A stretch of 64,000 nucleotides of DNA from Pirellulales bacterium (GTDB taxonomy: Bacteria > Planctomycetota > Planctomycetia > Pirellulales > PALSA-1355). Each line of letters begins with the position of its first letter. Positions within the stretch are counted from its first letter, which is position 1. The DNA is taken from positions 248,001 to 312,000 of the forward strand of contig JALHMI010000003.1 in assembly GCA_022844125.1 (NCBI GenBank). The letters are read 5' to 3'. The notes beneath the pieces were generated by a model. It was not told where the DNA came from, did no database searches, and saw only the letters and a program-made list of their open reading frames with translations. The translations under genes and the position numbers were made by a program. Below are positions 26,451-30,747 of this stretch, in pieces.

Positions 26451-26507
26451 TGTACCCGGCTGACCCTGTTTTCGTGAGCCCCGGAATTGAGCTGTCTCGC
26501 TGGGTCC

Positions 26508-26763
26508 GTGAAACGCCAAGACGCGGAGACGCCAAGACGCAACAAGGGCAGGGGGGAAGAGTTTTAACACAGAGACATATAGGAACTGCGACACAGAGAT
26601 AGAGGACGAACGGCGGCAAATGTTCACAGCGACGTACGTCGGTATTCCCAGTCTCTCATTCCCCTTTCTTCCTTGCATCTTGGCGACTCTGCGCCTTTGC
26701 GTTTCACGACCCTGCCAGTCAGCTATCCGTGTCTCTGGCCCTCTGTGTCCCTGTGTTAAGTTC
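26508..26763. repeat. Repeat element with inverted ends in the metG-blaI intergenic region
   Basis: The 30 bases at 26508-26537 (GTGAAACGCCAAGACGCGG...) match the reverse complement of 26678-26707 with four mismatches. A second inverted pair lies at about 26564-26600 (TTAACACAGAGACAT...) and 26728-26763 (...CTCTGTGTCCCTGTGTTAA). The parts belong to the same degenerate family as the copies at 24231 and 30762. No transposase or gene is inside. It occupies most of the 404-base gap between metG and blaI, so it separates the two divergent transcription units. Confidence 0.65.
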
Positions 26764-26786: not shown

Positions 26787-26838
26787 TTGACGCCCTCAGA
26801 CGAAATGTCTTATCCTCCCCTCAGACAACTCATCTGAG
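26787..26838 (+). promoter_or_regulatory. Promoter and candidate BlaI operators for the blaI-M56 operon
   Basis: TTGACG (26787-26792) and TATCCT (26811-26816) with an 18-base spacer form a promoter 39 bases upstream of the GTG. Two short dyads overlap it: AGAC-gaaat-GTCT (26798-26810) lies inside the spacer, and CTCAGA-N7-TCTGAG (26820-26838) covers the probable transcription start. Both share CTCAGAC, 25 bases apart. BlaI/MecI-family repressors bind paired dyads placed like this, so autoregulation is likely; this is an inference. Confidence 0.5.
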
Positions 26839-26854: not shown

Positions 26855-27274
26855 GTGTCGCCGCAGAATCTACGTCTCACGGATGCCGAGTTCGCGGTCA
26901 TCGAGCCGCTCTGGGAGCATGGCCCTCAAACGATCCGCCAGCTCACCGCCAGGCTCTATCCGGCCCAGTCCACTTCGGACTATGCCACGGTGCAAAAGCT
27001 GCTAGAGCGGCTGGAAGCCAAGGAATGCGTGGAGCGCGACCGCCAGCAGACGCCGCACGTGTTCCGAGCATCGATCGAGCGCGAAGCTCTGATCGACGAT
27101 CACCTGCAGCAAATCGCCGACCGGCTTTGCGAAGGATCCCTCGTCCCGGTCCTGAATCAGCTCGTCCAGCGGGTGTCGCTCTCGAAGGCCGAACGCTCGG
27201 CCCTGCAAAAGCTGCTCGAACAGCCGCACTCGCAGTCTGGCGCGAGCGCCAAGTCCCGGAGGAAGCGGTCATGA
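26855..27274 (+). CDS. BlaI/MecI/CopY-family transcriptional repressor
   Basis: A 139-residue winged-helix repressor. LRLTDAEFAVIEPLWEHGPQ starts the family N-terminus, and STSDYATVQKLLERLEAKEC is the recognition-helix/wing region. The C-terminal dimerisation helices end in a Lys/Arg/Ser-rich tail. GTG 26855 is chosen: GGAAGGAG lies 8 bases upstream, and the upstream part of the open frame is not protein-like and covers the promoter. The M56 peptidase gene overlaps its stop by 4 bases (ATGA). In BlaR1/BlaI pairs the membrane peptidase triggers loss of the repressor after signal binding; a similar scheme is likely here, with an unknown inducer. Confidence 0.9.
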   Translation: MSPQNLRLTDAEFAVIEPLWEHGPQTIRQLTARLYPAQSTSDYATVQKLLERLEAKECVERDRQQTPHVFRASIEREALIDDHLQQIADRLCEGSLVPVLNQLVQRVSLSKAERSALQKLLEQPHSQSGASAKSRRKRS

Positions 27275-30200
27275 TCATCACGCTCCTGGAGATCGGGCTC
27301 TCAAACGCGGTGGTCGCCTCGCTCCTCGCCGTCGTGGCGGTTGTCGTGACCAGGCGTATGCGCCCGCAGTGGGCTCTGGCCATCTGGTTGCTCGTACTTG
27401 CCAAGTTGCTCATGCCCCCGCTGTGGACCGTGCCGCTTGCTTCGCTGCGAGCACCTGTGCCTGCTGAAGTGCCGGCCGAGTTCGTCTCCTGGAACCAGGC
27501 TGAGCATCCCGTTGCTTTTTCGACGGAAGCGAGCGTCGTGGTAGCCGATGCTCAGCTCGAGCCGCTCCCGATCACAGAAGCAGTGGTCGAACCGCCAACC
27601 ACGACCATTTCTTTCCCTACTCTGGTGCTCGCCGCCTGGGGCTTCGGCACGGTGTGCTGGAGCGTCCTGGCCGCGCGGCGTATTCGTGGCTTCAGCACGC
27701 TGCTCAAGCACACACGACCGGCGCCCTCAGCGCTGCAGGCGACAATCGACGCACTTTCCGCCGAGATCGGCCTCCGCCGCGCGCCTGTGCTGCGCATCAC
27801 CAAGCGCCGGATCGCGCCGCTCGTCTGGGCGTTCACTCGCCGCACGACGATCCTGCTGCCGGCTGCGCTCGTGGAGCAACTTTCGCCCGATGAACTCAGG
27901 GCCCTGCTGCTGCACGAACTCACCCACCTGCGGCGGCGCGATCACCTGGCCAAGCTCCTGGAACTCGCGGCCGTAGCCGTTTACTGGTGGCTGCCCACTG
28001 CGTGGTGGGCTCGCCGCCAGGCCGATCGCGCGACTGAAGGCTGCTGCGACGCGGAGGTCGTAACTCGGCTGACCGGCGACGCCCGCAGCTACGCCTCGGC
28101 CCTGGTGAAAACGATCGACTACCTTTCGGAATCAACCCAGCCGCTACCGCTCGGAGCCAGCGGCTTTTCGCAGTTCGGTCTCGTATCAAGGAGGATCGAG
28201 ATGATTCTACAGCCACTACCCGCGCGACGCGCGAGTTGGAAGTCGCGTCTGGCAATCGTTGCCTTTGCCCTGCTGGTGCTGCCGGTTTCCGTCCGTTCGC
28301 TGTGGGCGGAACCCCCGGCGCCGGGGAGCGAGGGCGAATCGTCCCTCCCACCACCTGGTGACGAGACTTCCATTGCAGCCCAACAGACCTCCGATCCGTT
28401 GCCGGTCATGAGCGATGCGCAGAGAGCAGCTCAGCAGAAAGCCGACCTCGAGTATGATCCCGGCCATTCGGGCGACGACCAGAAGCTTAAGCTCGGATTT
28501 CCGAAAGACGATTCGCTGCCTGCCGCCCTCGGCCTCGCCCAGGCACTCTACCATGCTCAACTCGCGGCCCAGATGAACACTTTCTTTAGGCAGTACTTCA
28601 GCAAAGAGAGCCTGCAGCGAGCGAAAGACGAGCTCGCCAAGCTGGAGCAGAAAACGGATGATGAGCGGCAGCAGAAAACGATTGCCATCCGTGATGCCCA
28701 GCTCAGCCAGCTCGAGACCAGGCAAACCGCGTTCGCATCGGGCGACCTCCCCGTCGAAGAGCTCATTCAGACTCAGCGAGAACTGGCTGAAACCGAGTCG
28801 GCGCTGGCCAGCGCAATTTGCCCTGAGACCTGGTCCGGCGAAGTCCTGCGGATGCAAGCGAACTATGCAATCGCCACCGACGCACTGAACCGCGCTCGCA
28901 AGACCTGGCAGGAAGTTCATAAGCGGCTTGAAGTGGATGGTACCGAGGCAGCCACCGAGGCCCTCGCCCGAGAGCACTTTTACCAGTGCAAGCAGCAGTG
29001 TCAGAATGTGATGCAAGCCGCCCTCGGCGATTTCGGTCAACATTACTCGCAGGATAGCATTGACCGCGACATGGTAAGCGAGTTGCATGCCACGCAAGGC
29101 GCCGAATGGCGAACCTACTCGATCCCAGGTTCCACGACAGTCGGTGCGACGCTCACCAAACTCGATCCGCCTTCGGACGAGGAAATCATGCGTGCTTTGC
29201 ATCGCAAGCTCTTCAGTGAAGGTCGCTCTCCGGCAAAGGGTGACATCAAGATCGTCAAAGAGCTGCGCGCTACCTACGTCGATGATCCGCGTGTTCATCC
29301 CGAGGTCGGCCAGGCCCAGCGGCACCATGCGATCTACAAATGCACCGTAGGTTATGTCGAGCTGGAAGACGATCAGACCATCGAAGTGTTCTACATCGAT
29401 CACAATCATCTGCACCGCTTCGACAAGACACCTCAACAAGCGCAGACCGGCGAACCGGAAGCCGCATCAAGAGATTCTGAAGTTGCACCGGCCGGCGGCG
29501 AGTTCATTTCCACTAAAGAGCCGGGGAAGGCATGGATCTCCAGCGCAGCAGATTTGATCGACAATGACGTCTTTGAATCCAAAGCGAAGGCGTTGGCCCT
29601 GAATGCTAAAGGAGATTCGGCTCTTGCCGAAACCAATGCGAAACGGCGGGACGCCGCGGCGCGCCAGCTTGAGGCAATGGAGTCCGCCTATGAAGCGGGC
29701 ACGGTGACGATCGATCAACTCCTCGAAGCGCAGCGGCGGCATAGCGAAGCGCAGATGGTCTACTACCAAACCATCCTGCAAACCGATTTGGATTCCGCCG
29801 ACCACCGCCGCCTGCTTCATGAAGCCAATGTCGTCGTTGCCAAAGATGCCACGATCTCGGCTCGCCGCACCTGGCAAAAGGCATACGCAAAGTATCGGCA
29901 AGGCGTTCAAGGAGGCGAGGCCTCGGTCGAAGCCCAGGCTCGTGAGCAGTTCTACCAGTTCAAGCAGCAGTTCGAGCAAGCCAAACGTGGCTACCTGGAG
30001 GAACTCGAGCGGCAAGGCAAAGCGCCGAGCGAACGCACTTCTCAACGCGCACGCCAGCCGAAGACCGAAGCTGACAAGCGCATTCAGGCTGAGATGAATC
30101 GGGTTTCGATACTCGGTCCGATTGCCTCCGGTGAGACGCCGACGACTCTCGATCCGCCTGGCGACGAGGAAGTGTTGCGTGTCTGGCGGCAAAAACTCGT

Positions 30201-30747
30201 CCCCGCCGGGTGGCCGATCCCTAGCAAGATTACTCGCATCGCGAAGGAACTGGTCGCCACGTACACCGACCCACCGCGTATGTTTCCGTTGATCGGTAAA
30301 GCTGAGATGCACCACGCACACTATAAGTGCACGGTGACTTGCGAAGACGAGCAGGGAAAGAATAGCGAATCTGTATTATTTGTCGATCATCATCACCTGC
30401 ACCTCATGTCCACGCTGCACCACACTCCACCGGCCAACACCAGTTCCAGGCCGGTCTTCGAGATTCGCAAGCAACTCGTGCAGCTCAGGCACTTTCAGAT
30501 CCAACTCGCCCGTGAAAGAGTTAAGCTTGCCGACCTCGAGCAGCAGTACGCTGACAACCAGCGGAAGCAACTGGACATGGCCCAGGATGACGAAAGTGCA
30601 CTTGCCGCGCGACGCGCCGAGATCGAACGCCAGAAGTGGCGAATCAAGCAACGAGAGCTTGAGCTGCAAGCAGCCAAGAACCTCTATGAGAAACAGGCTT
30701 CGAACGCCGAGTCATCGCCGGTCATACCAGTGGATAAGCATGATTAA
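27271..30747 (+). CDS. M56 (BlaR1-type) membrane metallopeptidase with large duplicated C-terminal module
   Basis: A 1158-residue protein translationally coupled to the BlaI repressor. The first ~345 residues are a BlaR1-like M56 peptidase: transmembrane helices at about 5-25, 33-52, 115-135 and 325-345, zinc motif HELTH at 215-219, and a downstream acidic ligand region ATEGCCDAE. Residues ~350-1158 replace the usual penicillin-binding sensor. They hold two copies of a ~260-residue unit (about 470-716 and 780-1046). Each copy has a TolC-like coiled coil (EAQRR/QTQREL, then ARKTWQ and EQFYQFKQQ) and a compact domain with TLDPPxDEE, HHAxYKCTV and a D-H-x-H-L-H motif. A final coiled coil runs from 1065 to 1145. 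GGAGGAAGCGGTC precedes the ATG. Confidence 0.85.
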   Translation: MIITLLEIGLSNAVVASLLAVVAVVVTRRMRPQWALAIWLLVLAKLLMPPLWTVPLASLRAPVPAEVPAEFVSWNQAEHPVAFSTEASVVVADAQLEPLPITEAVVEPPTTTISFPTLVLAAWGFGTVCWSVLAARRIRGFSTLLKHTRPAPSALQATIDALSAEIGLRRAPVLRITKRRIAPLVWAFTRRTTILLPAALVEQLSPDELRALLLHELTHLRRRDHLAKLLELAAVAVYWWLPTAWWARRQADRATEGCCDAEVVTRLTGDARSYASALVKTIDYLSESTQPLPLGASGFSQFGLVSRRIEMILQPLPARRASWKSRLAIVAFALLVLPVSVRSLWAEPPAPGSEGESSLPPPGDETSIAAQQTSDPLPVMSDAQRAAQQKADLEYDPGHSGDDQKLKLGFPKDDSLPAALGLAQALYHAQLAAQMNTFFRQYFSKESLQRAKDELAKLEQKTDDERQQKTIAIRDAQLSQLETRQTAFASGDLPVEELIQTQRELAETESALASAICPETWSGEVLRMQANYAIATDALNRARKTWQEVHKRLEVDGTEAATEALAREHFYQCKQQCQNVMQAALGDFGQHYSQDSIDRDMVSELHATQGAEWRTYSIPGSTTVGATLTKLDPPSDEEIMRALHRKLFSEGRSPAKGDIKIVKELRATYVDDPRVHPEVGQAQRHHAIYKCTVGYVELEDDQTIEVFYIDHNHLHRFDKTPQQAQTGEPEAASRDSEVAPAGGEFISTKEPGKAWISSAADLIDNDVFESKAKALALNAKGDSALAETNAKRRDAAARQLEAMESAYEAGTVTIDQLLEAQRRHSEAQMVYYQTILQTDLDSADHRRLLHEANVVVAKDATISARRTWQKAYAKYRQGVQGGEASVEAQAREQFYQFKQQFEQAKRGYLEELERQGKAPSERTSQRARQPKTEADKRIQAEMNRVSILGPIASGETPTTLDPPGDEEVLRVWRQKLVPAGWPIPSKITRIAKELVATYTDPPRMFPLIGKAEMHHAHYKCTVTCEDEQGKNSESVLFVDHHHLHLMSTLHHTPPANTSSRPVFEIRKQLVQLRHFQIQLARERVKLADLEQQYADNQRKQLDMAQDDESALAARRAEIERQKWRIKQRELELQAAKNLYEKQASNAESSPVIPVDKHD

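Follow-up and report, generated by a model that had tools for sequence, protein, structure and literature searches.

BlaI/M56 pairs are familiar chiefly as beta-lactam sensors, and the pair encoded in the Pirellulales DNA analysed here (the window, a stretch of 64,000 nucleotides from contig JALHMI010000003.1) raises the question of which signal would be followed by a BlaR1-like protease whose ectodomain holds other material. The pair and the elements ahead of it are located as follows.

26795 to 26813, no strand assigned: operator-like palindrome 1, CTCAGAC-N5-GTCTTAT, putative in function (sequence, repeat search, pattern search)
26820 to 26838, no strand assigned: operator-like palindrome 2, CTCAGAC-N5-ATCTGAG, lying 25 bp downstream of palindrome 1, putative in function (sequence, repeat search, pattern search)
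26855 to 27274, + strand: blaI-type repressor gene (Pfam Penicillinase_R, 2.6e-23; sequence)
27271 to 30747, + strand: gene of the M56 (BlaR1-like) signal protease with a mosaic ectodomain, 1158 aa (ORF; Pfam Peptidase_M56, 2.6e-32)
27271 to 28311, + strand: transmembrane and M56 protease part, residues 1-347 (Pfam match, sequence)

The M56 ORF begins at ATG 27271, which overlaps the stop codon of the directly upstream blaI by 4 bases, and ends at 30747; blaI has a likely GTG start at 26855, preceded by GGAAGGAG, and a longer ORF opens at 26729. The Peptidase_M56 match (PF05569, 2.6e-32) spans profile positions 2-296 of 296, with the HEXXH motif present as HELTH at residue 215 (27913-27927) and the acidic third ligand region as EGCCD at residue 256; hydrophobic stretches lie at about residues 1-31, 34-56, 117-135 and 323-347. 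The protein is thus like BlaR1 and MecR1, which work with BlaI and MecI (MEROPS M56; BlaR1 cryo-EM, Nature 2023, PMC9834060), in its HEXXH protease part, its N-terminal transmembrane segments, the last transmembrane helix ahead of a C-terminal ectodomain, and the repressor gene adjoining it upstream. It differs in that the ectodomain, about 810 aa, is a tandem of TolC and lipoprotein pieces in place of a penicillin-binding domain; the view of the earlier note that the penicillin-sensing domain is missing was borne out, as no transpeptidase-like domain was matched in Pfam at E up to 1, and the NCBIfam model blaR1_generic, whose cut-off is 400 bits, scored 71.8 over residues 13-336 only. The locus encodes a BlaI/M56 repressor-protease signalling pair without a recognisable penicillin-binding domain, in a genome with 10 M56 matches.

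The two 19-bp palindromes (consensus CTCAGAC-N5-RTCTKAK, 25 bp apart) stand ahead of the likely blaI start, and it is a good guess that they are BlaI operators. A genome-wide search gave no excess of this motif (8 sites against 13 for a control pattern), so only autoregulation of BlaI through the two palindromes is suggested; a wider operator regulon was considered and rejected, the contexts of the other sites having told nothing clear. Direct repeats, GACGCCAAGACGC and ACACAGAGA, are also present in the intergenic DNA at window positions 26506-26600 and 26676-26760, and closer to blaI are strings that resemble them and look complementary; CTCTGTGTCNCTGTG, as an exact string, is found a single time in the genome.

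A tandem module in the sensor position of the M56 protein had been proposed in the earlier note, with the alignment of residues 470-716 to 780-1046 as its test, and this is confirmed: 36% of the 252 aligned columns are identical between copy 1 (residues 474-715) and copy 2 (793-1044), with 142 bits and E=4e-43. The self-alignment score of 371 compares with 36.8 +/- 5.9 for 500 shuffles, about 57 standard deviations higher, and each part is significant by itself, the coil scoring 167 against 34 for shuffles and the His-rich section 223 against 28; at only 36% identity, the copies are therefore old. All residue numbers given earlier are right when counted from ATG 27271, and the shared motifs stand where they were placed, with some corrections to their wording. 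ARKTWQ at 542 in copy 1 corresponds to ARRTWQ at 864 in copy 2; the coil motif is present in both copies, as HFYQCKQQ at 569 in copy 1 and QFYQFKQQ at 893 in copy 2; the supposedly common TLDPP is found in copy 2 (TLDPPGDEE, about 959) and reads KLDPP in copy 1 (KLDPPSDEE, about 630). HHAxYKCTV likewise occurs in both (HHAIYKCTV at 685, HHAHYKCTV at 1014), the third His of HHxH being Ile in copy 1, and the units close with HNHLH at 711-715 and HHHLH at 1040-1044. Beyond this repeat, the protein has a tail (residues about 1063-1139) with two further TolC-like segments.

A search of the ectodomain against its own genome, followed by pairwise and profile comparison, traced its parts to two other genes: one of the TolC family (L011, on contig C1 of G000; 823 aa, Pfam OEP 6.6e-23), and one for a lipoprotein of 196 aa (L010, on contig C2) which has no match in Pfam or NCBIfam. 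The derived segments, all on the + strand, are as follows.

28585 to 28803: stretch with weak likeness to TolC, opening unit 1, residues 439-511 = TolC 511-591 (23%, E=0.008; pairwise comparison)
28861 to 29004: TolC tip-1 hairpin copy of unit 1, residues 531-578 = TolC 311-360 (46%, E=6e-7; pairwise comparison)
29122 to 29415: lipoprotein-derived His/Cys domain of unit 1, residues 618-715 (43% to the genome's own lipoprotein, E=5e-26; pairwise and profile comparison)
29620 to 29778: TolC tip-2 hairpin copy of unit 2, residues 784-836 = TolC 545-597 (57%, E=8.5e-14; pairwise comparison)
29827 to 29970: TolC tip-1 hairpin copy of unit 2, residues 853-900 = TolC 311-358 (65%, E=2e-14; pairwise comparison)
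30061 to 30417: lipoprotein-derived His/Cys domain of unit 2, residues 931-1049 (38%, E=7e-27; pairwise and profile comparison)
30457 to 30549: TolC segment of the tail, residues 1063-1093 = TolC 499-529 (i-E 9e-7; profile search)
30568 to 30684: TolC segment of the tail, residues 1100-1138 = TolC 399-436 (59%, E=7e-8; pairwise comparison and profile search)

The coils had been described as TolC-like, and they prove to be true homologues, namely hairpin copies of the genome's own TolC at 46-65% identity. Each of the two conserved pieces is about 50 residues long and has one of the two periplasmic TolC tips at its centre; these tips are where TolC-family channels meet adaptor proteins. The likeness to TolC extends to the tip hairpins (57% and 65% identity in unit 2) and the two further segments of the tail, while the beta-barrel segments (about 120-277 and 437-499 of the genome's own TolC) have no match in the M56 ectodomain, and the two colinear repeats of a TolC/OEP protein are absent. 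The order is also reversed, tip 2 preceding tip 1 in the M56 ectodomain and tip 1 preceding tip 2 in the genome's own TolC; this is clear in unit 2, tip 2 being weak in unit 1, and in the real TolC genes of the order the two hairpin matches lie apart and in the order opposite to that of the ectodomain. TolC material has thus been reordered, duplicated and fused to an inner-membrane protease. The neighbours of the TolC gene itself, a methyltransferase and a WYL regulator, are uninformative.

The remaining part of each unit is the whole alpha/beta His/Cys domain of an envelope lipoprotein of Pirellulales and Planctomycetia (HHAHYKC...DHNHFH), at 38-43% identity; an HMM of the lipoprotein detects the two M56 copies with i-E 6.8e-26 and 3.5e-28. 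The His/Cys motif domain is retained, whereas the lipobox, the small free-standing form and a loop of about 11 residues are missing, and two copies are embedded in one 1158-aa protein. The lipoprotein occurs in almost every genome sampled from the order and in a family that belongs to a second order of the class, and in most of the phylum it was not found (21 of 294 genomes); its named records are mostly from Pirellulales. In most of 16 genomes read, its gene is grouped with genes for BON, TPR (YfiO-like), ExbB and ExbD proteins; on contig C2 (L054:44-9462) the gene order is TlpA-like, BON, His/Cys lipoprotein, TPR, ExbB, ExbD, and it is kept in most of those 16. Elsewhere (G053:C198:1952-4250; L034, L292) two lipoprotein genes lie close to each other, one of them without the loop that the M56 copies lack. 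Large open frames at lipoprotein matches in three relatives were considered and proved to be ordinary lipoprotein genes.

The ectodomain is composed of TolC and lipoprotein copies, and with such a make-up the first signal to consider is one from the envelope or the export machinery. Our preferred reading, held tentatively and at slightly less than an even chance, is that the ectodomain would be a duplicated mimic of an export-channel docking surface, through which the protease may sense the partners of an export machine. That it binds TolC or lipoprotein partners, and so follows the state of export, is suggested by the homology, the conserved tips, the recurrence of TolC parts in two M56 lineages and an E. 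coli precedent: a small lipoprotein, YbjP, binds the periplasmic part of TolC (eLife 2026, PMC13082787, PMC13095208), a complex that serves by analogy only, without homology shown to the Pirellulales lipoprotein.

The best-surviving alternative, which we consider rather unlikely, is that the two His/Cys domains bind a transition metal and that the protease is switched by metal occupancy alone, with the TolC-like coils serving only as stalks. Across 90 lipoprotein homologues H143, C149, D179 and H182 never vary, conservation of H144, H146, H180 and H184 is 94-98%, and both M56 copies retain nearly all of these residues, one His being gone in copy 1. Structure models were obtained for the lipoprotein alone (pLDDT 72) and for unit 2 with the tail (mean pLDDT 79); the domain arrangement of the latter is unsure because its pTM is 0.46. 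Unit 2 is predicted to form two helical hairpins (8-33/39-64 and 68-102/109-139, with the GTVT and GGEA tip loops at their turns), then an alpha/beta domain with HHAHYKC on a strand at 239-250 and further strands around HHHLH at 265-269, the model ending in the long tail hairpin; the lipoprotein is predicted as a helix packed with long antiparallel strands. The His/Cys motifs fall on neighbouring predicted strands in both models, and the cluster is a plausible, predicted metal site. Fold searches with the His/Cys domain gave a best Z of 5.3 in VIA-align and nothing at E<=0.001 in Foldseek, which does not imply a new fold; unit 2 also matched nothing at E<=0.001, its helix-dominated matches including CusC and OprM among many unrelated proteins. 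Another M56 protein of the order (L072:1459-3093, + strand, in G122) closes with a long stretch rich in His, Asp and Glu, which may be a metal-binding ectodomain and lends the metal reading some further weight. Against it, the conserved residues come with the lipoprotein and their conservation speaks first for the lipoprotein's own role, so the inherited His cluster need not be the sensing site; moreover, a plain stalk would not call for TolC tips as well conserved as these. A metal signal is possible and would be compatible with the docking-surface mimic.

The distribution of the module bears on a second alternative, that the ectodomain is a passive spacer or oligomerisation element from domain shuffling, with a true signal unrelated to TolC or the lipoprotein. 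No orthologue of the whole protein was found in 97 relatives or in 396 genomes of the order, nor in a scan of genome contigs with the whole protein; glnE-miaB is kept in two genomes of the same family, and the stretches read beside glnE hold neither blaI/M56 nor metG. The module survey proposed earlier thus had a divided outcome, since the exact mosaic occurs, as far as searched, in one genome only and is not shared among the 396, while TolC pieces recur in other M56 sensors. In L068 (G149) and L090 (G177) the M56 ectodomain is a colinear TolC without either barrel segment; L090 matches TolC 277-432 (4e-41) and 500-620 (1e-26) and otherwise only a short N-terminal stretch. Both have blaI directly upstream, at 46-47% identity to the blaI of the window, the closest of those compared. 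A tree of the protease domains of 62 M56 proteins unites the present protein with L068, L090 and the secretin-like L121 (support 97/91); within this clade, a tighter group of the present protein with L068 and L090 has 98/41 and is uncertain. When searched for with a profile, the two-hairpin module turned up in another M56 protein of the same genome (L048), in L200-L206 and in small secreted proteins; these M56 carriers form a separate clade (100/100). Four of the small secreted-looking proteins (L207, L208, L209, L210) contain little besides the TolC-like two-hairpin module. A joint clade of both TolC-bearing M56 sets was rejected (p-AU 0.014, indicative since the group had been defined following an initial inspection), and M56 sensors therefore probably acquired TolC parts on two or more occasions.

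Other export components are found in the same position. The 2276-aa M56 protein L206:3526-10353 (+ strand, G021) carries an HlyD/CusB-type adaptor domain (7.6e-12) followed by the TolC-like two-hairpin module, and two M56 proteins have secretin-like ectodomains, one in the same genome (L001:1402-3582, + strand, contig C3; 1.1e-5, slightly below the Pfam cut-off) and one in G362 (L121:1551-4322, - strand; 2.3e-5, just below it). On contig C8 of the same genome, L049:2847-6326 (- strand) has five Poly_export (Wza-type) stretches (E=4e-35); the same contig holds L047:1058-5296 (+ strand), an M56 gene with one in-frame TAG just past the CCDE region (435 + 977 aa), which is a pseudogene or a sequencing error. 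A Pfam survey of 52 M56 proteins gave CarboxypepD_reg in 7 ectodomains, WD40 in 6, Secretin in 4 and LRR in 3, and across the order these ectodomains differ greatly (WD40, CarboxypepD_reg, LRR, HEAT); given this mixture and the Poly_export stretches of L049, export-machine parts are a recurring, not the sole, theme. An open-library literature search found no paper on TolC-bearing M56 sensors.

A spacer is favoured by this diversity, by the commonness of coils and by the restriction of the mosaic to one genome. It is at odds with the retention of specific tip segments at 57-65% identity while the barrel segments are absent, with the probable entry of TolC parts at least twice, and with the HlyD and secretin-like domains of other M56 sensors; we regard it as doubtful, and less probable than the metal switch. 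That the gene is decaying or misassembled, with functionless fused fragments, would fit the scrambled segment order and the single genome and is very improbable in view of an uninterrupted 1158-aa frame with codon-position G+C bias throughout, an intact HEXXH motif, an intact blaI with start overlap, and the age of the copies.

The docking-surface mimic is supported by the repeat, the segment-wise homology, the segment order, the recurrence in M56 sensors and the blaI pairing. Also in its favour are the predicted placement of the tip loops at the hairpin turns of unit 2, the HlyD, Poly_export and secretin-like parts of other M56 proteins, and the position of the lipoprotein gene beside BON, TPR, ExbB and ExbD. 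Counting against it are the lack of an excess of operator sites, the fold searches described above, in which coils match many unrelated proteins, and the restriction of the exact mosaic to one genome. The variety of M56 ectodomains also counts against it, as loose shuffling of domains could have brought in export parts among many others. Under the mimic reading, the ectodomain, anchored in the inner membrane, would bind a periplasmic partner that normally docks on the TolC tips and/or the lipoprotein; an HlyD-type adaptor or an ExbB/ExbD-linked complex is a candidate. A change between the free and engaged states of this partner, perhaps governed by how far the His/Cys site is loaded with metal, would shift the last transmembrane helix and activate the cytoplasmic HEXXH protease; BlaI would then be removed from the two palindromes ahead of blaI, raising expression of the blaI/M56 pair and of further targets. 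The partner, the signal, the direction of response and the regulon are the inferred elements of this scheme.

The mimic may belong to a wider class of decoy-channel sensors, a possible though somewhat unlikely generalisation, in which M56 proteins carry barrel-less copies of export channels (TolC, possibly secretin and Wza-type) and the docking of partners would give a transcriptional read-out of the assembly or occupancy of export machines. Pirellulales genomes hold many BlaI/M56 pairs, and ectodomains made of export-channel pieces, present in at least two M56 lineages, give part of them a concrete, testable signal; the present protein also draws a link between the order-wide His/Cys lipoprotein of the ExbB/ExbD locus and TolC-type export. 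If the reading is true, sensing would proceed by imitating the binding surface of a partner; the make-up of the ectodomain suggests that, for some BlaR1-like proteases, export machinery may be what is sensed, in place of antibiotics.
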